From Candidatus Hydrogenedentota bacterium (GTDB lineage: Bacteria > UBA8481 > J006), in assembly GCA_003697085.1 (NCBI GenBank), contig RFFU01000081.1, forward strand, positions 1 to 23,105: a stretch of 23,105 nt of DNA, written 5' to 3'. Every line of letters begins with the position of its first letter. The first letter of the stretch is position 1. A program made the position numbers and the translations under genes. Below the pieces are notes generated by a model. The model was not told where the DNA came from and searched no databases. It worked only from the letters and a program-made list of their open reading frames with translations. This document shows positions 5,416 through 22,770 of the stretch, in pieces.

Positions 5416-5444
5416 TTGCTTATCACGACCGTTTGGCGTACAGT
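5416..5444 (+). promoter_or_regulatory. Putative sigma70-type promoter for rplS
   Basis: TTGCTT at 5416-5421, a 17-nt spacer, then TACAGT at 5439-5444. Both boxes match the consensus at four of six positions and the spacing is ideal. It would give a leader of about 85 nt before the rplS start. Confidence 0.45.
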
Positions 5445-5535
5445 TCGTCGCTCGCGCGAGGAAGGCCTTTTCATCCGGGCTTTCCCGGTTATTTGGCATC
5501 CGAAGAATCATCGAAGGAAACGAGGAGAAAAGAAG

Positions 5536-6057
5536 ATGAGCAAGTTGATCGAGGCGATCGAGAAAGAAGAGTTACGGCGGCGATCGCCGGACTTCCGGGC
5601 GGGAGACACCGTCCGGGTCCATACCAAGGTCCGCGAAGGAAACCGGGAACGCATCCAAATCTTTCAAGGCGTCGTTATTCAGCGCAAGGGTTCGGGTATT
5701 CGTGAGACATTCACGGTCCGGAAGAACTCCTTCGGAATCGGAGTGGAACGAATCTTTCCGCTTCATTCTCCCTTCATCGACAAGATCGAATTGGTGAAAA
5801 CCGGGCGCGTTCGGCGCTCCCGCATCTATTACATTCGGAAACGAACCGGCAAGAAATCGCGGCTCCGTGAGCGGATCCTTCCGGGGCAGGCCTTCGACGG
5901 TTTGACGGTCTCCGAAGCCATTGAGGTGGAACCGCGACCGGAACCGGAAAGCACGAAAGAAGAAACCTCGAAGGCAACTGCGGCGCCGGCGGAATCGGCT
6001 CCGGCGAAGACGACCGCGCAAGAGGCAGGAGAGTCATCTCCGGGCGTGTCGAAGTAA
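5536..6057 (+). CDS. rplS: 50S ribosomal protein L19 with acidic/Ala-Pro tail
   Basis: 173 residues. L19 sits at the 30S-50S interface. The core (residues ~1-118) carries the family pattern: [53 protein letters not shown] and the basic RRSRIYYIR segment. The ATG at 5536 is chosen because homology starts there and GAGGAG (5522-5527) lies 8 nt upstream; the upstream part of the same open frame has no L19 similarity. Usual L19 length is about 115-120, so residues ~120-173, rich in Glu, Pro, Ala, Thr and Lys, are an extra, probably disordered tail. It is followed by FliK-like and FlhB-like genes. The usual neighbours trmD and rimM are not upstream within this window. Confidence 0.96.
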
Positions 6058-6078
6058 GGAGCGGTCGAAAGCGGCGCT

Positions 6079-6124
6079 TCCCCGGCGTCTCGACTGCAGT
6101 ACGGGGCGAGCCCCTCGCCGGGGA
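6079..6124 (+). repeat. Inverted repeat between rplS and FliK-like gene
   Basis: TCCCCGGCG (6079-6087) and CGCCGGGGA (6116-6124) form a perfect 9-bp inverted repeat with a 28-nt loop that contains a smaller GGCGA/TCGCC stem. A weak T-run (TTTT) follows, so it could attenuate transcription between rplS and the next gene or be a processing hairpin. Confidence 0.45.
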
Positions 6125-6145
6125 TTTTCCCGAAAGGATTTGTTG

Positions 6146-7813
6146 ATGCCGATCTCGGGGGCCGGAGGTTCTCGTTCCTTCTCGCCTTCGATCGGAAAGA
6201 TCGTCGTCCGCGAGGTCGATGCGGCCGCGATCAAGGCTCGGCTCTCCGTCGGCTCGCGCCTCTCCGCGCGCGTTCTCCAGTCCCACGGAAAGAATCTCTT
6301 CACGATCGGCTTCGCCGGAATGCGAATGCTCGCCGAATCGGACGTTCCCCTCTCCGTCGGAATGCGTCTCTCCGTTCTCGTTGCATCGTTGGAACCGAAA
6401 ATTCATCTCCGCTTGACGCCGCGTGAAGGTCGAAACGCCGCCGAGATCCTCGGGAAATTCGGAATCCGGAATCCCTCGCCGGAACTGATCGCCGCCGCGA
6501 AAGAGATGATCGCCTTGGGCCTTCCCTTCGAACCCGCTCTCCTTTCGGCCGTACGAAACGCCCTTGATAAAGGATACACCCCCCGCCAGGCGGCGTTGAG
6601 CGCTGCGCGGGGATACGCCGTGACAAAGGAAGCCGCCGTGCGCGCCGCCGCGGCGCGCGATTCCCTCACCCAAGCCCTCTCCGCCCTTACCGAACATCTT
6701 CAAAACGACGGTCTCGAATCGACGGCCGCCGCGATCGAGAAGGCCTTCACCTTTCGCGGTGACCTCCGTTCTTTCCTCGAACCCCATCCGCTTCGCCTCA
6801 CCCGCCGCCTTCTCTCCCTCCCCGAGCCGAAGGAACCGGAAAGCCTGCAACGGTTTCTGGAGACGCTGCGCAATCTCGAACGCCGCTTCCGTGACACAGC
6901 CCTGGAGGAAGGAGAACCGGAGATGAGCCGAACGCTCGATCGCCTCCTTTCCGAGGACCTCGGAGGATCAGCCCTCTCCCCGATCGCTTCGGAGGATCTC
7001 GAACACCTTTCGGAGATTCTCATCGGCCGAGAACGTTTTCTCGAGGCGCGGGCTCTCCTGCGATTCCTTCCCGCGGATCGGCGGCGGGAAGCCCTCGCGT
7101 TGCGCCTCCGCCGGCTCATCGCTGCCGAAAGGGACCCCGGAGCCGATCCACGTGCTCCGGAAACCGCGCGGCTGGCCTCGGATCTGCTTGCCGAGATTCT
7201 CGCCGGCCCTTCCCGCAACGCCTCCGCAACGGCAAGACTTGAGAATCTCGTCACGCACCTCATCAATCTCGGTCGGACTCGTCAAGCAGGCTTCCTCGAA
7301 GCACTTTTCAATCCCGAGACTTCCGGAACGTCCGCACGGGAACCGATCGAATTGTTGATGACTCTCGCGGATGGAAAATCAACCGAGCCTCATCGAACCG
7401 TCTCCCCGGAGACGGCCCGCGCCGCGCAACATCTTCTGGCCGTCGCGGAGGGTCAGTTCCTGCTGGGAGAACCCGAACCGGCGATTCCTTTTCTCTCCGA
7501 GGACGACGAGAAATCGGAAGGGCGCCTGAGTGCCGATCGCGCCCCCGAGATCACATATCTCCGCTTCCGACTTTCCCCCACGAATCTTGGCCCGCTCGTC
7601 GGAGTGATGGATGTCCGTAGAAAAACGATCGGGCTTTCCCTCGGCTCGAACAGTGACAAAGCGCGGAAGGCCCTTCGTTCGGCCTTGCCGGACCTGCATC
7701 GATCGCTCGCCGCGCTCGGCTTTCATCTCGAATCCGCGACCGTGGAACCCCTGGAACGCGGCAGAGAGGCGTCTTCTGACGCGATCCCGTTCGGTTTCGA
7801 CGTGAAGATCTGA
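6146..7813 (+). CDS. FliK-like protein (flagellar hook-length control family, YlqG-type position)
   Basis: 555 residues. ATG 6146 is chosen because AAAGGA (6133-6138) lies 7 nt upstream; the upstream extension in the same frame is an Arg-rich shadow of the rplS tail. Residues ~10-90 look like the small beta domain often found at the N-terminus of FliK-like proteins (VGSRLSARVLQ, then FTIGFAG, LSVGMRLSVLV). The middle is helical and rich in Arg, Leu, Glu and Ala. Residues ~468-545 resemble the FliK C-terminal domain (LGPLVGVMDVRRKTIGLSL, then LRSALPDLHRSLAALGFHLESATVE). Known FliK measures hook length and switches FlhB specificity. Here it is followed 11 nt later by a FlhB-tail-like protein, the same order as rplS...ylqG-ylqH in Bacillus subtilis. 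Its real role outside a flagellar locus is not known. No flagellar genes are visible in the window. Confidence 0.65.
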   Translation: MPISGAGGSRSFSPSIGKIVVREVDAAAIKARLSVGSRLSARVLQSHGKNLFTIGFAGMRMLAESDVPLSVGMRLSVLVASLEPKIHLRLTPREGRNAAEILGKFGIRNPSPELIAAAKEMIALGLPFEPALLSAVRNALDKGYTPRQAALSAARGYAVTKEAAVRAAAARDSLTQALSALTEHLQNDGLESTAAAIEKAFTFRGDLRSFLEPHPLRLTRRLLSLPEPKEPESLQRFLETLRNLERRFRDTALEEGEPEMSRTLDRLLSEDLGGSALSPIASEDLEHLSEILIGRERFLEARALLRFLPADRRREALALRLRRLIAAERDPGADPRAPETARLASDLLAEILAGPSRNASATARLENLVTHLINLGRTRQAGFLEALFNPETSGTSAREPIELLMTLADGKSTEPHRTVSPETARAAQHLLAVAEGQFLLGEPEPAIPFLSEDDEKSEGRLSADRAPEITYLRFRLSPTNLGPLVGVMDVRRKTIGLSLGSNSDKARKALRSALPDLHRSLAALGFHLESATVEPLERGREASSDAIPFGFDVKI

Positions 7814-14972: not shown

Positions 14973-15083
14973 TTGCCGCCACCGTTCGCCGCGCTACGGG
15001 GCTGGTTGGAATCGCCTCTTGACCAGAAAAGGCGCAATTCGCGGCGGAAGTAGAGGAACGATGTGACGGGAGAGTTCAAAGAG

Positions 15084-15908
15084 ATGAACAAGGACGAACT
15101 GAGCAGGACCCTTGCCGCGGCGGCGGCTCGAATCGAGTCCGAATCTCCGGGAACTCCTCGGATCGCCATGATTCTGGGCTCCGGACTCGGGGCTTTGGGC
15201 GAGGAAGTCGAGGGAACAAGCATCGACTACGGTGACATACCGGGATTTCCCGTATCGACGGTCGAAGGCCACGCGGGAAAACTCTGCCTCGGCCGCCTCG
15301 CTGGACAGGAGGTCGCCGTGATGTCGGGCCGCTTCCATTTCTATGAGGGATACACCCTGCAGGAGGTGACCTTCCCGGTACGGGTCCTGCGCCGGATCGG
15401 TTGCGAAATTCTCCTCGTCACCAACGCCGCGGGAGGAATCAACTCCGAATTCTCCGTTGGAGACTTGATGCTGATTACCGACCATATCAATTTTCTCGGA
15501 GCCAATCCGCTCTTCGGTCCGAACCTCGATGAACAGGGGCCGCGGTTTCCCGATATGTCACAGGCCTACGACCGCGCGTTGCAGAACACCGCGCGAACCA
15601 CCGCGCACGAACTGGGAATTGTGCTTCGCGAGGGCGTTTACGTCGCCTCGATGGGGCCGAGCTACGAGACGGCCGCGGAGATCAGAATGTACCGAACAAT
15701 GGGCGGGGACGCCGCGGGAATGTCCACGGTACCGGAAGTCATCGTCGCGCGGCACGCCGGAATGCGGATCCTCGGGCTCTCCTGCATCACGAACATGGCC
15801 GCCGGCATCCTGCCCCAGCCGCTTTCCCACGAAGAGGTCATCGAGACGACGGAACGCGTCAAATCCACCTTCCGGAAACTCGTCCTCGGCATCCTGGAGA
15901 GGCTCTGA
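15084..15908 (+). CDS. punA: Purine nucleoside phosphorylase (trimeric, 6-oxopurine type)
   Basis: 274 residues. It cleaves (deoxy)inosine and (deoxy)guanosine with phosphate to base plus ribose-1-phosphate. Visible family marks: ILGSGLG with Ser33, EGHAGKL with His63, MSGRFHFYEGY with Arg83 (phosphate site), TNAAGGIN, GVYVASMGPSYETAAEIRM with Glu195, GGDAAGMSTVPEVI and SCITNMAAG with Asn237 (base site), as in the mammalian-like PunA group. ATG 15084 has GGGAGAG 9 nt upstream; GTG 15063, in frame with AGAGGA 5 nt upstream, is a real alternative adding seven residues. It heads a tightly packed operon with the pyrimidine phosphorylase 3 nt behind. Confidence 0.95.
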   Translation: MNKDELSRTLAAAAARIESESPGTPRIAMILGSGLGALGEEVEGTSIDYGDIPGFPVSTVEGHAGKLCLGRLAGQEVAVMSGRFHFYEGYTLQEVTFPVRVLRRIGCEILLVTNAAGGINSEFSVGDLMLITDHINFLGANPLFGPNLDEQGPRFPDMSQAYDRALQNTARTTAHELGIVLREGVYVASMGPSYETAAEIRMYRTMGGDAAGMSTVPEVIVARHAGMRILGLSCITNMAAGILPQPLSHEEVIETTERVKSTFRKLVLGILERL

Positions 15909-15911
15909 AGC

Positions 15912-17219
15912 GTGCTGACTCCGTACGAAATTATCAAGAAGAAGCGCGACGGAGGGGAACTGACGCGAGAGGAAATCTTCTTCATCATCGATTCTTTCAC
16001 AAAGGGCGAGATTCCCGATTACCAGATGGCCGCTTTCCTCATGGCCGTCTACTTCCGGAAACTCAACGACCTCGAGACGGCGCTCTTGACGCAAGCCATG
16101 CAAGCGTCGGGAAAGTCGATGGACCTCTCTTCCGTTCCCGGGCCGACCGTGGACAAGCATTCCACGGGCGGCGTCGGAGACAAGGTCTCGCTTCCCTTGG
16201 CTCCGCTCGTGGCGGCCTGCGGCGGGTTCGTTCCGATGATGTCGGGAAGAGGTTTGGGACACACGGGCGGAACTTTGGACAAACTCGAATCAATTCCCGG
16301 CTTCCGCGTGAATCTTTCCAATGGAGAATTCGTCTCGGCCGTGCGTGAAGTCGGCTGCGCGATCATCGGCCAAACCGCAGATGTGGCGCCGGCGGACAAG
16401 AAACTCTACGCTCTTCGCGACGTAACCGCAACCGTCGATTCGATGGATCTCATCGCCGCTTCGATCCTCTCGAAGAAATTGGCCGCCGGCCCGAAATCCC
16501 TTCTGCTCGATGTGAAGACCGGGTCCGGCGCGTTTATGCGAGAACTCGACGATTCCCGGGCCTTGGCGCGTTTGATGGTCGCGATCTGCCGTAATTCCGA
16601 CCGAAACGCGCGGGCTTTGATCACGAATATGGATCAGCCGCTGGGAGAAGCCGCCGGTAACGCGAACGAGGTGGAGGAGTCCCTTTCGGTTTTGCGGGGA
16701 GAGGGACCGGAGGATCTCACGACACTGGTCGTGGAATCGGGGGCCCGGATGCTCGAAATGGCCGGCTTGGTGAAGAACCTCGATCAGGGACGCGCCCGCA
16801 TCCGCAATGCGATTACGTCCGGCGCGGGACTGGACCGATTCCGGAAGATGCTGGAGCGCCAGGGAGGCGATCCGCGGGTCGTCGACGACCCGACCTTGCT
16901 TCCGCAAGCCGCCCATCGCTGGGAAGAAACCGCCGACCGATCCGGAACCCTCCTCTCCATCGATACCACGGCGGCGGGAATGGCCGTCGTCGTTCTCGGA
17001 GGGGGAAGGCAGAAGAGCACCGACGACGTCGATCACGCCGTCGGAGTCCGTTTTCTGAAAAAACCGGGCGATGCCGTGGAGAAAGGAGAACCGGTGTTTC
17101 TGATCGATTACAACGACGAGGAGCGCCTCGCGGATTGCCGCGCGCGCCTCGAAAAAGCCATCGTTATCGGCGACGGCGAACCACGGCGTCTTCCGTTGAT
17201 CCTCGAGGAGATCGACTGA
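15912..17219 (+). CDS. pdp: Pyrimidine-nucleoside (or thymidine) phosphorylase
   Basis: 435 residues. It splits thymidine/uridine with phosphate. The phosphate loop KHSTGGVGDK (82-91), the family signature SGRGLGHTGGTLDKLES (111-127), SILSKKLAAG-KSLLLDVK-GSGAFM and the C-terminal beta/alpha domain are all present. The length fits Pdp/DeoA of bacteria (about 430-440). I favour Pdp over strict thymidine phosphorylase from the overall pattern, but substrate range is not certain. GTG 15912 follows GAGAGG by 8 nt. With punA it supplies both halves of nucleoside salvage; its stop shares one base with the recJ start (TGATG). Confidence 0.93.
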   Translation: MLTPYEIIKKKRDGGELTREEIFFIIDSFTKGEIPDYQMAAFLMAVYFRKLNDLETALLTQAMQASGKSMDLSSVPGPTVDKHSTGGVGDKVSLPLAPLVAACGGFVPMMSGRGLGHTGGTLDKLESIPGFRVNLSNGEFVSAVREVGCAIIGQTADVAPADKKLYALRDVTATVDSMDLIAASILSKKLAAGPKSLLLDVKTGSGAFMRELDDSRALARLMVAICRNSDRNARALITNMDQPLGEAAGNANEVEESLSVLRGEGPEDLTTLVVESGARMLEMAGLVKNLDQGRARIRNAITSGAGLDRFRKMLERQGGDPRVVDDPTLLPQAAHRWEETADRSGTLLSIDTTAAGMAVVVLGGGRQKSTDDVDHAVGVRFLKKPGDAVEKGEPVFLIDYNDEERLADCRARLEKAIVIGDGEPRRLPLILEEID

Positions 17220-19447
17220 TGCGCCTCGAAAAAGAGTGGGTCGTCCCGGAACCGGACTTGGCTCTCGTAAACGAGATGGCCCGGGGTCTGGGAGTCTCCG
17301 AGGCTCTCGGGAAATTGCTCGTGGGACGCGGATTCCGCTCACCCCGCGAGGCTCTTGCCTTTCTCGATACGAGTCTCGACCGTCTCTCGAATCCCTTTCT
17401 CCTCAACGAAATGGTAAACGCGGTCGGCCGTGTCCGGCTCGCGCGGAGGCGGGGCGAGACCGTGTTCATCGCCGGAGACCGTGACGTGGACGGCGTCACC
17501 TCGACGGCGCTTTTGGTGAACCTGATGAAACTCTTCGGCATCAACTGCCGCTGGCGCGTTCCCCTTCCGGAAGACGGATACGGACTGAGCGTAAGGGCCG
17601 TGGAAGCGGCGGCGGCCGCGGGAGCGAAACTTCTGATCGCCGTCGATTGCGGTATCCGCGATTTCGCCGGCGCCGAGCGGGCCGAAAAACTCGGGCTCGA
17701 TCTCATCATCCTCGATCATCACGAGCCGGCGGAGAAACTTCCTCGAGCCTGGGCCGTCGTCGATCCCAAGCGCGGGGATTCGCGGTACCCCTTTTCGGAA
17801 CTGAGCGCCTGCGGGCTCGCGTTCAAATTCGCTCAAGCCCTGCTCCTTTCCGAGGACGAGGAATTCTACGGAAAAGAGATCGTGGTCTTCGACTTCGAGA
17901 CTTCGGGATTCCAGCCGTCCCGCGCCCAGATCATCGAGATGGGAGCCGTGAAGACCCTCAACGGCAATGTCCTGGAGGAGTTCTCGTCCTTCGTGGAATG
18001 TCCCTCCCCTCTCGATCCTTCCTGCACGGAAGTACACGGCATCCGGGACGAGGACTTACGCGGAGCGCCTCCACTTGAAGAAGTCCTGCCGCGGTTTCTG
18101 GAATTTGTCGGCGACGCGATCCTGGTGGCTCACAACGCGCCGTTCGACATCAAGTTTCTCAATTCCGCGCTCAAGGAGTGCGGGTTGCCGCGCCTAAAAA
18201 ACCCCGTCTGGGACACGCTGCGGATGGCACGAACGCACTTTCCGGCAATGGGCCACAGCCTTGAAAATATGGCGGAGGAATTGGGGTTGAAATTGGATCA
18301 GGCGCACCGGGCCGTCGATGATGCCCGTGCCACTTTCGAACTCCTCAAGCGCATCGTCGTCCGCCGCAACGCGAAACTTCTCGCGTTCCTCGGAGAACAC
18401 CTCGACCTCGTGGCTCTCTCGACCGTGGCGGACGTCGTCCCGCTCGTCGACGAAAATCGCGTTCTGGTGAAGAAAGGCTTGGAAAAACTTTCGTCGAGCC
18501 GGCGGCCGGGAATCGTCGCCCTTCGAACAGCCCTCCTTCGTCGGGGATCGGATCCGACCGCCAAGGACGTTTCCTGGTCGTTCGCTCCTCTGATCAATGC
18601 GGCCGGGAGAATGGGTCGCGCCGCACTCGCCGTTAACCTTCTGCTTACGAGGAACGAGCGGGAGGCTTCCGAGATCGTGGCGAAATTGACCGCGCTCAAT
18701 ACCGAGCGGAAGGAGCGCGTCAAAACCAATATGGAAGCGGTCATCGCGGAACTGGAAGAGACCTTCGATCCCGAGCGGGACATGGCGGTGGTCGTCTGTG
18801 TTCGGGATATCGAACACGGCGTGACGGGCATCGTGGCGAACCGGCTCCTTCACGATCTTGGCCGGCCCGTCGCCGTGCTGATCGAGGACGAGCGCGGGAT
18901 CGCCCGGGGAACGACGCGAAGCATCGAGGGATTCGATATCACCGTCGCGCTGAAGCGACTCGAACACCTTTTGCTGAAATGGGGCGGGCATTCCGGCGCG
19001 GCTGGCCTCTCCCTCCGGATGGAAAACCTCGAGGCCTTTCGTCAGGGGTTGAACGAACTCGTGGCTCGCGAGATTCCCCCGGAACGGTTGCGGCCGCGGT
19101 TGCGGATCGACGCCGAGCTCCAACCGGATGAGATCAATGATCGGCTCGTCAAGGAACTTGAACTCGTCGAACCCACGGGGCATGGTAACGAGCGGCCCGT
19201 CTTCTGCATCCGTAGCGCCCGCGTCGGAGAGATACGGCGGATGGGCGACCAAGAACAACATCTCAAGGTGACCGTGGAATCGAGAAACGGCCCCCTCGAG
19301 TTCGTGGCCTGGAACGTGGACGACGCTCTGGTGCCGTATCCCGGCGAAGAGATCGACGTGGCCTTCGGGTTGGAACGAAACGAATGGCGCGGGCTCGAAC
19401 GCATTCAGTGCCTCGTCGAGGACATCAAAAGGAGGGGGAGAGTATGA
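17219..19447 (+). CDS. recJ: RecJ 5'-3' exonuclease with DnaQ-like DEDDh exonuclease inserted in the DHH core
   Basis: 742 residues, against about 560-580 for ordinary RecJ. RecJ parts: motif I GDRDVDG (Asp87, Asp89, Asp91), motif II VDCG (Asp143), DHH at 166-168, ACGLAFKFAQAL (197-208), then after an interruption LDLVALSTVADVVPL (Asp405), LINAAGRM (458-465), DHHA1 signature GGHSGAAG (589-596) and the OB-domain phrase PTGHGNERPVF (652-662). Between them residues ~221-380 are a complete DnaQ/epsilon-type 3'-5' exonuclease: FDFET (Asp225, Glu227), AHNAPFD (Asp310) and HRAVDD (His363, Asp368), so all five DEDDh residues are kept. ATG 17219 has GAGGAG 8 nt upstream. The frame is continuous across both junctions with no sign of sequencing frameshift. 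Known RecJ needs Mn/Mg and degrades single-stranded DNA from 5' ends; a dual-polarity nuclease is inferred. Confidence 0.93.
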   Translation: MRLEKEWVVPEPDLALVNEMARGLGVSEALGKLLVGRGFRSPREALAFLDTSLDRLSNPFLLNEMVNAVGRVRLARRRGETVFIAGDRDVDGVTSTALLVNLMKLFGINCRWRVPLPEDGYGLSVRAVEAAAAAGAKLLIAVDCGIRDFAGAERAEKLGLDLIILDHHEPAEKLPRAWAVVDPKRGDSRYPFSELSACGLAFKFAQALLLSEDEEFYGKEIVVFDFETSGFQPSRAQIIEMGAVKTLNGNVLEEFSSFVECPSPLDPSCTEVHGIRDEDLRGAPPLEEVLPRFLEFVGDAILVAHNAPFDIKFLNSALKECGLPRLKNPVWDTLRMARTHFPAMGHSLENMAEELGLKLDQAHRAVDDARATFELLKRIVVRRNAKLLAFLGEHLDLVALSTVADVVPLVDENRVLVKKGLEKLSSSRRPGIVALRTALLRRGSDPTAKDVSWSFAPLINAAGRMGRAALAVNLLLTRNEREASEIVAKLTALNTERKERVKTNMEAVIAELEETFDPERDMAVVVCVRDIEHGVTGIVANRLLHDLGRPVAVLIEDERGIARGTTRSIEGFDITVALKRLEHLLLKWGGHSGAAGLSLRMENLEAFRQGLNELVAREIPPERLRPRLRIDAELQPDEINDRLVKELELVEPTGHGNERPVFCIRSARVGEIRRMGDQEQHLKVTVESRNGPLEFVAWNVDDALVPYPGEEIDVAFGLERNEWRGLERIQCLVEDIKRRGRV

Positions 19448-19704
19448 GCGCGGGAAAGGGAAAGGAGTCCGTGTCGGTCTTTGCCGTCGTGGACGAGATC
19501 GAGGAGGACCTGCTCGTGCTGGTCTTCGACGACAATCGGAAATTGACCTGGCCGCGCAAGGAAGCGCCCGCGGGAACACGCGAGGGCACCGTGCTGCGGA
19601 TCACGTTGGAGCGCGACGAGGAGGAACGAAAGCGCCGCGAAGACAAAATCCGCTCGCTTCAACAACGTCTCCTCGAAAGAACACGCAAAGGACACGGAAA
19701 ATAA
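19444..19704 (+). CDS. Small DUF3006-like protein
   Basis: 86 residues. The N-terminal half is a small beta unit (VFAVVDEIEEDLLVLVFDD, LTWPRKEAPAGTREGTVLRI) and the C-terminal half a highly charged helix (DEEERKRREDKIRSLQQRLLER). This fits the DUF3006 pattern (xVDRIE...P...LPEG-KEGDVL, then DEE...R-E-I..L...L). The function of that family is unknown; members are often next to nuclease-like or ComEC-type hydrolase genes. ATG 19444 overlaps the recJ stop (ATGA), and a GGAGGGGGAG ribosome site sits at the end of recJ. It could be an accessory subunit of the operon's nucleases, which is inference. Confidence 0.6.
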   Translation: MSAGKGKESVSVFAVVDEIEEDLLVLVFDDNRKLTWPRKEAPAGTREGTVLRITLERDEEERKRREDKIRSLQQRLLERTRKGHGK

Positions 19705-19706
19705 CG

Positions 19707-21107
19707 ATGACCTATCGCGAAATCGTCGAACGGGAAGCGACCGAGTCGAAGACACTCCCGGTCGTCGCGGAACGATTCCGCGGAATATCGGGAAGAAAGG
19801 TGCTTCTTTTTTCCCACGACGACCCCGACGGGGTGGTGACGGCCTCGATGGCCGCTCGACTCTTGAAACGCTGTGGAGCGGCGGAGGTCGAGGTGCATCT
19901 GCCCCCGACCTTCGACCTCGAGCCGAACGAGGTGCGCGAGGCGCTTTCCGGCAGATCCTTCGACCTCCTCATTTCCCTCGACAAGGGCACCAGCTCCAAG
20001 GCGGATGAACTTATCGCGCTGGTTCCCGACGTTATTGTGATCGACCATCATTATCAGCAGGGAGAAATCCAAAAGGCGCTCGTTTACAACCCCTGCGTTC
20101 AGAACGATCGTCCGTACTGTTCTTGTTCGTACCTCCTCCATATCCTTTCTTCCCTCCTCGGCCGAACTTCCCCGGCGGACGATTGCGACGCGCTTGTGGG
20201 GCTCAAGGCGGATTGGGTCATCGACCCGACGATCGGGAATTGGGGAGCCGAAGAGTTCGTGCGCCCCTTTGTCGAGGAGATGGCGGAACGTTACCCCGGG
20301 CTCTTCCGGAAGACTCCGGGAGCAACCCTCTTCGATGTAACGCAGCGGAAGGAAAGCGTCGTCCTATCGAAAATTGCTCAAGCCTATTTCGCCGTTTCCG
20401 GCGGCGGTTTTCAATATTTCTTCCCCGTCCCCTCGCTCAATGGAGGTCAACCGCCGCGGGTTCTCCTCGAGGCGCTTCTTTCCCTGGACAAGAAGGCGTC
20501 ACGGTTACCGGAGGTCGATTCTCCGCAAGACTTCTTCTCTCTTTTTGAAAACGGTGACATCTTCCGGGAATGCCTGGCGGCCTTCGAGCAGGAGTGGCGG
20601 CGGGTTACGAAACTGCTCGAGATCGCCACACCCTTGGTGGAACTCAACGGGAGCCAGGTTCTGATCTTCTTCTCGGACCGCCTGCGCCTCCTTCCCCTCG
20701 TCGGGGGCCTGGTTCTCGAAACGCTTCTCGCAAGGGAAGGAAAAGAGAACGGTCTTCTGATTATGATCAATCGCGAAGAACACGGAATCCACTTCTCCTT
20801 GCGGGCGAACTGCGACCGGATCCATGTCGGTAAATTCTGCGGCACGTTGGCGCAACGGCTTGTCGACCTTTTCGGCCATCCCGATCAGATCACCGGCGGC
20901 GGCCACATCCGCGCCGGTGAGTGCAGGACACGCCGGAGCGGGGCACCGTACTTCGAAGTCCTTCGCGTCTTCTTCCAACTCGTCGAGGACCTCGTTCGTT
21001 GCGATCGAGGCGAGGCGGAAACGACTGCCGATCCGGCGCTGATCGAAATCCTCGGCCCCGAACGAATCTCTCCCGCCGCAAACAACGGAAAGGAGTCACG
21101 AAAATGA
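19707..21107 (+). CDS. DHH/DHHA1 phosphoesterase, RecJ-like (second DHH protein of operon)
   Basis: 466 residues. It has DHH motif I SHDDPDG (residues 36-42), motif II ISLDKG (Asp92), the DHH triad at 113-115, and a C-terminal DHHA1 glycine motif GGGHIRAGEC (397-406). The order and spacing fit the DHH superfamily of Mn-dependent phosphoesterases (RecJ, archaeal RecJ-like/GAN, NrnA-type nanoRNases). Sequence around the motifs is unlike the upstream RecJ, so it is not a simple duplicate. The HDDPDG form reminds me of archaeal RecJ-like proteins. Substrate (single-stranded DNA, RNA, oligonucleotides) cannot be chosen from sequence. ATG 19707 is 2 nt after the previous stop with only a weak GGA ribosome site, suggesting translational coupling. 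Confidence 0.85.
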   Translation: MTYREIVEREATESKTLPVVAERFRGISGRKVLLFSHDDPDGVVTASMAARLLKRCGAAEVEVHLPPTFDLEPNEVREALSGRSFDLLISLDKGTSSKADELIALVPDVIVIDHHYQQGEIQKALVYNPCVQNDRPYCSCSYLLHILSSLLGRTSPADDCDALVGLKADWVIDPTIGNWGAEEFVRPFVEEMAERYPGLFRKTPGATLFDVTQRKESVVLSKIAQAYFAVSGGGFQYFFPVPSLNGGQPPRVLLEALLSLDKKASRLPEVDSPQDFFSLFENGDIFRECLAAFEQEWRRVTKLLEIATPLVELNGSQVLIFFSDRLRLLPLVGGLVLETLLAREGKENGLLIMINREEHGIHFSLRANCDRIHVGKFCGTLAQRLVDLFGHPDQITGGGHIRAGECRTRRSGAPYFEVLRVFFQLVEDLVRCDRGEAETTADPALIEILGPERISPAANNGKESRK

Positions 21108-21529
21108 CATTCAAAGAAACGGAATATCCCGGCCTTCTTGGCGAGATACGGCGTATCGCCGAGACGGAACGCGATCCTGCGTTGGCCCTCGAACGAATCC
21201 GGGAATTGATCCTCATCGAAAATCGCATTCCGCTCTATCCCGGCCTTGTGACCTTGGTAGGACAGTCGCTTGTCGAGGAAGTTTCTGTCTCGGATTTGAG
21301 CCCCGGCGATACCGTCTCTCTCGACGCTGACGGAAGGACCCTGCTGGGAATTGTCGCCGAGCGGAAAGGCCGTTCCCTTCTTCTCAAAAACGCGGTTCTC
21401 TCGGAACATATTCCTCAGACCCGCGTCGATGCGCCGGAAAAGGCGCGTCGCCTGAACCGAAACGCGCTGGAAACCTCCTGGCCTTCCCTCGTCTTCCAAC
21501 GCCGTTCAGGAAAGAGAGCCGCCCGATGA
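21104..21529 (+). CDS. Unrecognised 141-residue protein in the nuclease operon
   Basis: 141 residues; I do not recognise the family. The first ~50 residues are helical and acidic (LLGEIRRIAETERD, ALERIRELILIENRIP), the middle is a likely small beta-barrel (VEEVSVSDLSPGDTVSLD, LLGIVAERKGRSLLLKNAVL), and the tail is basic (RRLNRNALE, QRRSGKRAAR). No signal peptide or membrane segment. ATG 21104 overlaps the DHH stop (ATGA) and has AAGGAG 8 nt upstream; the end overlaps the kinase start in the same way. Position between a nuclease and a polynucleotide kinase, and a basic tail, would suit a nucleic-acid-binding adaptor, but that is inference. Confidence 0.8.
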   Translation: MTFKETEYPGLLGEIRRIAETERDPALALERIRELILIENRIPLYPGLVTLVGQSLVEEVSVSDLSPGDTVSLDADGRTLLGIVAERKGRSLLLKNAVLSEHIPQTRVDAPEKARRLNRNALETSWPSLVFQRRSGKRAAR

Positions 21530-22770
21530 ACCACACGTTGAAAAAGGGGGAGATCCTCTCCGTCGCCGGACCGGCCTTCGTTCGTGTCAAGCGCGGGATG
21601 GTCGAGATCGTAGGAGCGCCGTTGAAACCGTCGCGAGTACCCTTGAAGATCCCGGAGGGAAAAACGGTTCCGTTCGAGGCAAGGAAACCAAGCGTGCTCT
21701 CCATCACCGGAGCCGACGCACGCGTGGAGGAGATTCGAAAACGGACGATCCCGAGGAAATGGGATCTTCTGATCGAGCGGATCGCAAGGCGGCGGATTCG
21801 GAAGATTATCGTTTTGGGGGAGATGGATACCGGGAAATCCTTCTTCGCCACCTACGTCGCCAACAAATTGCTCGGGCGCGGCATCCGCCCCGCCGTCCTC
21901 GATTGCGATATCGGCCAGTCCGACATAGGACCCCCGGGGTGCTTCGGAGTTCTCGTATTGAAGCGCCCCACACCGTTTCTTGCGCTTCAGGAGCCGACGG
22001 CGATCGAGATGGTCGGAGCCCATTCTCCCGCCCTCCATTTTCTCCCCACGGTGGCGGCCTTTTCCCGAATGACGAAACAGGCCTTGAAAAGCGCGGATGT
22101 ACTGATCATCAACACCAACGGTTGGGTCCAGGGAGACGGAGGAAGAGCGATGAAACGGACGAAACTCGAGGCGTTCGATCCCGATCTCATCGTTCTTATG
22201 CAGCGCGACCGCGAACTTGAACATCTCGTTGTACGTGAACCAAAACGTAAAATCGTTCGCATGGTTGTTTCCCGCAAGGCATCCTTTACACCGCCCGACG
22301 AACGAAAATTGCTTCGCGAGGAGATTTCACGGCGGTATATGAAGAACGCTCGCACCATTACGATCCGCGGATTTTTCACCGCGCGGGCGTATTACGGGAC
22401 CGGACAAGTTTCTCAACCGCCAGTGCCCGTCCCGGGCCTCCTCCACGCCGAACGCCTCTCGGGTTGGGAGGGCTGGCTGCTGGTAACGAAGAAACCGATC
22501 CGGAACCCGGCACGCCTTTCCGAACGGTTGAAATCGCGGATTATGAATATCGTTGCCGGCAGCGAAAGGAACGTGATGGTCGGCTTGCTCGATGCCCGCG
22601 ACCGTTGCCTCGGTATCGGCTCGCTTCAGTCCCTCGATTACGCGCGGCGCATTGCGAGAATCGTAACCCCGGTGCGCAACAAAAAAGCGATTTGTACGAT
22701 TCAGTTCTCTTCGTTGCGGCTGGATCCGAAGGGATACGAGGCGGGGTTCGTCACACCAGGTTCCTTCTGA
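21526..22770 (+). CDS. Clp1/Grc3-type polynucleotide 5'-hydroxyl kinase
   Basis: 414 residues. The N-terminal beta domain resembles archaeal/eukaryotic Clp1 proteins (VAGPAFVRVKRGMVEIVGA, then PEGKTVPFEA, 14-52). The P-loop domain has Walker A GEMDTGKS (98-105), the family phrase DCDIGQSDIGPPG (126-138) and INTNGW (195-200), the Walker B-adjacent NTxGW 'clasp' region of Clp1/Grc3. A C-terminal beta-rich domain follows, as in the family. Known members phosphorylate 5'-OH ends of RNA and sometimes DNA with ATP, feeding tRNA splicing, rRNA processing or repair; they are typical of archaea and eukaryotes and sparse in bacteria. ATG 21526 overlaps the preceding stop. As last gene of the operon it would supply 5'-phosphate ends to the RecJ-like enzymes upstream. 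That link is inference. Confidence 0.85.
   Translation: MNHTLKKGEILSVAGPAFVRVKRGMVEIVGAPLKPSRVPLKIPEGKTVPFEARKPSVLSITGADARVEEIRKRTIPRKWDLLIERIARRRIRKIIVLGEMDTGKSFFATYVANKLLGRGIRPAVLDCDIGQSDIGPPGCFGVLVLKRPTPFLALQEPTAIEMVGAHSPALHFLPTVAAFSRMTKQALKSADVLIINTNGWVQGDGGRAMKRTKLEAFDPDLIVLMQRDRELEHLVVREPKRKIVRMVVSRKASFTPPDERKLLREEISRRYMKNARTITIRGFFTARAYYGTGQVSQPPVPVPGLLHAERLSGWEGWLLVTKKPIRNPARLSERLKSRIMNIVAGSERNVMVGLLDARDRCLGIGSLQSLDYARRIARIVTPVRNKKAICTIQFSSLRLDPKGYEAGFVTPGSF

Follow-up and report, generated by a model that had tools for sequence, protein, structure and literature searches.

A RecJ-family protein carrying a DEDDh exonuclease domain inside its DHH core, and its relatives among bacteria

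The nested recJ gene and its two catalytic domains

The window examined here is the whole of a 23-kb contig (23,105 nucleotides) from the draft assembly of a Candidatus Hydrogenedentota bacterium, a genome that we refer to as G000. It carries a recJ gene in an apparent operon with genes for two nucleoside phosphorylases, a second DHH protein and a CLP1-like kinase (Table 1). The DHH domain of this RecJ is interrupted, between motif III and motif IV, by a domain of the PolC/DnaQ type that contains all five DEDDh residues (D225, E227, D310, H363 and D368). A reading made from the letters of the DNA (the sequence-only reading) had singled out these residues, and they fall at exactly the catalytic positions. 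Membership of the RecJ family is clear from the TIGR00644 recJ profile, which was matched at 506.9 bits against a curated cut-off of 396.9 over model positions 3-546, with the insert looped out. All 8 RecJ catalytic residues are kept (DDDDDHHD at 87, 89, 91, 143, 166-168 and 405). The insert in turn matched Pfam RNase_T (PF00929) at residues 222-376 along the full length of the model (1-164/164; E 2e-38, 132.9 bits against 24). The nested two-nuclease protein that had been proposed, with RecJ motifs intact on both sides, was thus recovered with its 8 DHH and 5 DEDDh residues. Moreover, the connection at this point is indeed short in ordinary RecJs, as had been supposed: the stretch from motif III to motif IV measures 3-25 residues in 87 insert-less RecJs, against about 180 in the window protein. 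By sequence the insert is nearest to PolC exonuclease domains (37-41% identity).

An AlphaFold2 model of the whole protein, for which 60 sequences from the window and the loci were aligned, reached a predicted local distance difference test score (pLDDT) of 95.1 and a predicted template modelling score (pTM) of 0.93. In VIA-align comparisons the model superposed on S. aureus RecJ (8y30) with Z 39.7 and a root mean square deviation (rmsd) of 2.5 over 554 residues, spanning residues 3-740. The insert superposed on the PolC exonuclease with Z 25.6 and rmsd 1.5 (169 residues over 213-383, 41% identity), and its DnaQ fold was matched by E. coli epsilon (VIA Z 24-25, rmsd 1.4-1.6); Foldseek matches to this fold had TMt 0.86-0.88. 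Since the VIA-align and Foldseek matches agree, the RecJ half and the insert are each predicted to be complete domains, the insert taking up an independent DEDDh fold, a point that the sequence-only reading had proposed to check by structure prediction.

Table 1. Features of the nested recJ gene and of its neighbours in the window
Feature	Positions	Strand	Basis or remark
Nested RecJ gene, 742 aa	17219..19447	+	Stop-free translated frame; ATG overlaps last base of upstream thymidine phosphorylase gene
DHH domain, part before insert, residues 82-210 (D87, D89, D91, D143, D166-H167-H168)	17462..17848	+	Pfam and residues
Arg88 in motif I (GDRDVDG); Tyr/Phe in insert-less RecJs, Tyr80 in D. radiodurans	17480..17482	+	Alignment; PMC4846377
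Shortened loop RVPLPEDGYG, residues 113-122, without the 5'-phosphate arginine (D. radiodurans Arg109)	17555..17584	+	Alignment to D. radiodurans RecJ; family table
Inserted PolC/DnaQ-type DEDDh exonuclease domain, residues ~214-385	17858..18373	+	Pfam RNase_T, VIA fold match, residues
Resumption of RecJ core, LDLVALSTVAD (motif IV), residues 395-405, Asp405	18401..18433	+	Sequence
DHHA1 domain, residues 524-616	18788..19066	+	Pfam
RecJ OB domain (RecJ_OB), residues 630-735	19106..19423	+	Pfam
Purine-nucleoside phosphorylase (PNP), upstream in same apparent operon	15063..15908	+	Order conserved in G001
Thymidine/pyrimidine-nucleoside phosphorylase	15912..17219	+	Overlaps RecJ start by 1 base; conserved in G001
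DUF3006 small protein	19444..19704	+	Overlaps RecJ stop codon; also in G001
Second, separate DHH/DHHA1 phosphoesterase, 466 aa, without insert	19707..21107	+	Relative in G001
141-aa protein of unknown family, between DHH and CLP1 genes	21104..21529	+	155-aa open reading frame at same place in G001
CLP1_P (Clp1/Grc3-type polynucleotide 5'-kinase-like) P-loop protein, end of apparent recJ operon	21526..22770	+	E 1e-31

Distribution, end pocket and decay of the insert

The only other genome of the window's phylum available for comparison (G001, from another family) encodes a nested RecJ of 53% identity over residues 2-738, behind the same thymidine phosphorylase gene. Relatives were also sought in 145 sampled genomes, of which nearly all represent different phyla, and further nested RecJs were found in G030, G018, G072 and G116. 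Among named genomes the nesting is present in an Elusimicrobia metagenome-assembled genome (MAG; L034, 43% identity in the best segment) and in many Treponema and Spirochaetaceae. A complete one-contig genome (G158) from the phylum of G018, which we take from its RecJ types to be Spirochaetota, carries an insert with the full DEDDh set (a live insert). A search of genome contigs for close relatives with the window protein alone gave no match; a query built from the alignment did find relatives. Viral contigs offered 80 RecJ-like loci, and in none of these was the nesting recognised. The order DHH, RNase_T, DHHA1 therefore recurs in independent genomes, and nested RecJs form an apparently old subclass, present in at least seven phyla, whose live form the window protein represents. 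Two further observations were made at these loci. The L034 gene (4998-6755) is apparently frameshifted in its DHHA1 region, with the DHH and exonuclease parts intact, and several Treponema loci (L036, L038, L039, L044, L086 and others) have a frame for an NAD-dependent-type DNA ligase a few kb from recJ.

The window is a contig of a draft assembly, and a frame error or misassembly joining recJ to a polC or dnaQ fragment could in principle have produced the nesting. However, G001, G030, G018, G072 and L034 have the same junctions, as does G158 with its single contig. Identity between the insert and the PolC exonuclease of its own genome is just ~40%. Because independent genomes share the nesting, we exclude a chimera or frame error, which now seems vanishingly unlikely.

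The insertion is accompanied by a change in the pocket that binds the 5' end. In D. radiodurans RecJ (DrRecJ), Tyr80 stacks on the +1 (terminal) base, Arg109 holds the 5' terminal phosphate and Tyr114 excludes ribose; kcat/Km falls from 17.1 to 1.1 in Y80A (15-fold) and to 1.6 in R109A (11-fold) (PMC4846377). The motif I residue between the first two aspartates is Tyr or Phe in 94/96 insert-less RecJs and in 0/82 insert-bearing ones. The latter have Arg, Lys or Ser at this position, with Arg or Lys in 47 of the 59 tabulated nested rows. Likewise, the arginine of the loop P-x-R-x3-E-G-Y-G is present in 95/96 insert-less and 0/82 insert-bearing RecJs, and the nested loop is usually one residue shorter. 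By alignment the two lost positions are Tyr80 and Arg109 of DrRecJ. Elsewhere in the pocket the window protein keeps Tyr121 (DrRecJ Tyr114), Arg464 and Arg567, and has Thr565 as the equivalent of Ser371, so that the standard set (Arg109, Arg280, Ser371 and Arg373, with Tyr80 and Tyr114 stacking at +1) is incomplete. The window protein is thus a RecJ by descent and fold that lacks the standard 5'-phosphate end pocket. Since it has lost both the tyrosine of motif I and the arginine that holds the 5' phosphate, 5'-to-3' action like that of any RecJ cannot be assumed for it.

Only one insert-less RecJ (L014, from G068) has both pocket changes, and in an unrooted tree built without the insert it groups with the nested RecJ of G116; the 85 other insert-less RecJs lie on one side of a branch with support 100. 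The insertion and the pocket change appear to mark one old clade. A single origin of both, with one later loss of the insert in L014, is the simplest reading, the direction of change being inferred on an unrooted tree. In a tree of exonuclease domains the inserts also lie on one side of a branch from other RNase_T domains, with support of only 75/57, and this tree does not show a single origin of the insert.

Among complete nested sequences, just one has lost the DHH residues. A full DEDDh set is found in the window, G001, the phyla of G030 and G072, L034 and the Spirochaetota families f19, f157, f166, f167, f174 and f178. It is lost in Treponema-like, Brachyspira-like (f154), Borrelia-like (G220) and further spirochaetes, G200 among them, and also in G116 and G119, which belong to two other phyla. 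Among live inserts of four to five phyla the five residues are invariant. Mean pairwise identity is 39.9% for the insert, 39.0% for the DHH part and 30.2% for the OB part; because the insert is about as conserved as the DHH part and more so than the OB part, it is under constraint comparable to that on the DHH part.

The inserts that have lost the set are no longer obvious as exonucleases. Neither phmmer with the window insert nor Pfam searches allowing E up to 1 recognised those of Treponema. A model of the Treponema insert by itself, made from Treponema rows only, nevertheless had a pLDDT of 87.6, with its strands and helices in the DnaQ order. The rows listed in its VIA ranking were overwhelmingly DEDDh-type exonuclease chains (Z 10.6-8.1); its assignment is taken from this ranking and not from Foldseek, where nothing was significant (best E 5e-3, to integrase-type RNase H folds). 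Profile-profile comparison with live inserts was collinear for Treponema (probability 91.6, E 8e-7) and weaker for the Brachyspira-like inserts (probability 52.8). What these data suggest for the Treponema-, Borrelia- and Brachyspira-like genomes, and for two further phyla, is an insert that has survived as a dead pseudo-exonuclease. The reverse decay was seen in a MAG that is 76% complete (G177; L330, G177:C51:1000-4500), in which the DEDDh set is intact and the DHH motifs are dead (no DHH, no GGH); this genome also encodes a separate RecJ-like frame of standard length elsewhere. Given a dead exonuclease in Treponema and a dead DHH site in G177, it seems that the two activities can be shed independently. 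A RecJ-like protein without an insert in G261 (L250) also has degenerate DHH motifs (ADCAPGA, DYH).

Gene neighbourhood and candidate functions

The apparent operon is kept in G001 as two blocks, one of which retains the order DHH, 155 aa, CLP1. We speculate that it links the nested RecJ to nucleotide turnover, and perhaps to phosphorylation of 5' ends that a 5' exonuclease could then use. Outside this operon, a frame at 5416-6057 (+) matches ribosomal protein L19; the match is flanked on either side by what look like long extensions, and the frame overlaps a FliK-like (Flg_hook) frame at 5921-7813 (+).

In a profile search the only RNase_T domains of G000 were those of PolC and of the RecJ insert, and no ExoI- or ExoX-like protein was among the matches. 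A wider claim, that G000 lacks every other exonuclease acting on 3' ends of single-stranded DNA (ssDNA), is weakened by the presence of ExoVII. The PHP site of its DnaE is intact. Of 15 Spirochaetota genomes whose insert is live, 12 yielded no other RNase_T domain, and standalone RNase_T proteins occur in 3/15 live-insert genomes against 54/84 others (p 0.003, from hand counts uncorrected for relatedness). Family f178 is the extreme case. The RecJ insert is the only RNase_T domain found in all four of its genomes (G210, G217, G238 and G263), and in the three of these that were checked DnaE has lost almost all of the nine metal ligands of its PHP site; in most other live-insert genomes the DnaE PHP is intact. 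In the Brachyspira-like f154 genomes (G222, G242 and others) the RecJ insert is degenerate and this search turned up not a single RNase_T domain, and in the two of them tested no ExoVII large subunit scored above the family cut-off.

Our preferred explanation, which we rate as slightly more likely than not, is a RecJ-family nuclease with a second, independent DEDDh site, acting as a two-ended ssDNA nuclease in repair. Both sites are inferred to be active, and the insert would have the 3'-5' polarity that is general for DEDDh enzymes. The DEDDh site would remove nucleotides from 3' ends of ssDNA, the DHH/DHHA1/OB channel would degrade ssDNA processively, and one polypeptide could then clear or resect ssDNA from either end in gap repair, recombination or mismatch repair. 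In E. coli the same jobs are done by RecJ together with the separate DEDDh exonucleases ExoI and ExoX. The basic residue in place of the tyrosine might partly replace the lost arginine, in which case the DHH half would still work with an altered end preference. Several observations weigh against such a nuclease. Loss of the equivalent pocket residues lowers DrRecJ kcat/Km 15- and 11-fold (Y80A, R109A; PMC4846377), the dead fold retained in many relatives indicates that a non-catalytic role exists too, ExoVII means that the lack of a 3' ssDNA exonuclease in G000 is not absolute, and the nucleoside phosphorylases, DHH protein and CLP1-like kinase of the operon could point to nucleic-acid salvage instead.

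The insert might alternatively be a stand-in proofreader, serving the replicative polymerase in trans by the removal of 3' mismatches, with RecJ only its carrier. The f178 genomes, in which no other RNase_T domain was found and the PHP ligands of DnaE are nearly all lost, fit this, as does the rarity of standalone RNase_T proteins where the insert is live. Moreover, a 2026 survey holds that some bacteria with a dead PHP and without DnaQ "may possibly use noncanonical proofreaders", and it credits Treponema with standalone DnaQ subunits (PMC12926913); in Treponema the RecJ insert is dead. However, the window genome has an intact DnaE PHP and a PolC with its own exonuclease and so needs no stand-in, and most other live-insert genomes likewise retain the PHP. 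A simple pattern scan gave no convincing clamp- or alpha-binding motif, and the absence of DnaQ comes from one profile search of draft genomes. We regard this role as unlikely for the window protein. A mainly structural or docking role, in which the insert guides ssDNA or offers a protein interface and catalysis is dispensable, would account for the dead folds that the Treponema-, Borrelia- and Brachyspira-like genomes, like two other phyla, keep at the same site beside an intact DHH site; the helical insertion in the DHH domain of human Cdc45 similarly "appears poised for replisome interactions" (PMC4873980). A scaffold would not need the five DEDDh residues that are invariant in live lineages, however, and G177 has kept a live exonuclease and lost its DHH site, and we find such a role quite improbable here.

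DEDDh enzymes also include RNase T and Orn, and the insert could trim RNA or short oligonucleotides 3'-5' for salvage, its products feeding the nucleoside phosphorylases of the operon. The overlapping order PNP, thymidine phosphorylase, RecJ, DUF3006, DHH, 141 aa and CLP1-like kinase, found as two blocks in G001, speaks for this. That arrangement is known from the window and G001, though, and several Treponema loci have the DNA-ligase frame near recJ. PolC exonucleases, the nearest relatives of the insert, have DNA as their substrate, and Tyr114 of DrRecJ, which excludes ribose (PMC4846377), is conserved as Tyr121. Salvage is therefore rather improbable in our view, and the two-ended repair nuclease remains the explanation that we prefer. 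A broader proposal, which we consider doubtful, is that RecJ-embedded DEDDh domains form an unrecognised class of 3'-5' exonuclease, serving as a noncanonical proofreader in f178 and elsewhere as part of a bidirectional RecJ with a redesigned 5' pocket, and that the reciprocal decay of the two sites records their independent shedding.

Comparison with known systems

The nearly universal RecJ is regarded as an enzyme with one activity, 5'-3'. In an entire clade, whose members databases name simply RecJ, the core holds a second nuclease domain and the 5'-end residues have changed. A single polypeptide may cover work that in E. coli takes several exonucleases, and the clade offers a natural experiment in the gain and loss of each activity. 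The "extra" stretch of RecJ in Treponema- and Borrelia-like spirochaetes can be reinterpreted as a probable dead exonuclease, and the live insert is a concrete candidate for the proofreader in bacteria with a dead PHP and without DnaQ. RecJ and DEDDh exonucleases are both well known. We found no description of a RecJ with a nested DnaQ or RNase_T domain in the open literature, most subscription papers lying outside the search, nor one of its spread, its decay in spirochaetes or the linked pocket change. The sequence-only reading had allowed that this might be a common and already characterised RecJ subclass; common it is, in Spirochaetota, and characterised, as far as this search went, it is not.

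Compared with bacterial RecJ (D. radiodurans 5f54-5f56, S. aureus 8y30, T. thermophilus 2zxo), the window protein has the same DHH, DHHA1 and OB domains, all the metal-binding residues and the same overall fold (Z 35-40). It differs in its 172-residue DEDDh insert, the motif I arginine in place of tyrosine, the missing equivalent of Arg109 and a loop one residue shorter. D. radiodurans RecJ is also longer than the E. coli type, but its addition is a C-terminal HerA/SSB-binding domain and not a nuclease (PMC4663267, PMC4846377). The PolC exonuclease (T. maritima 2p1j, PolC 9qpc) is the closest in sequence and fold (37-41% identity, Z 25.6), and PolC likewise has its DEDDh domain nested in another catalytic domain, its PHP (PMC3919608). 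The host of the insert is a nuclease rather than a polymerase, however, and G000 has a separate regular PolC too. In S. aureus DinG (8zef; PMC12345164) a DEDDh domain that matches in fold (Z 25) is also fused to a DNA-repair enzyme, but as an N-terminal fusion to a helicase, whereas that of the window is nested in a nuclease. Cdc45 and archaeal GAN are likewise RecJ cores with an insertion in the DHH domain, and Cdc45 lacks equivalents of the pocket residues Arg109, Ser371 and Arg373 (PMC4846377, PMC4873980). In Cdc45 the inserted part is a helix with an acidic region, located elsewhere in the protein, and the DHH site is dead, whereas in the window protein both sites look live.

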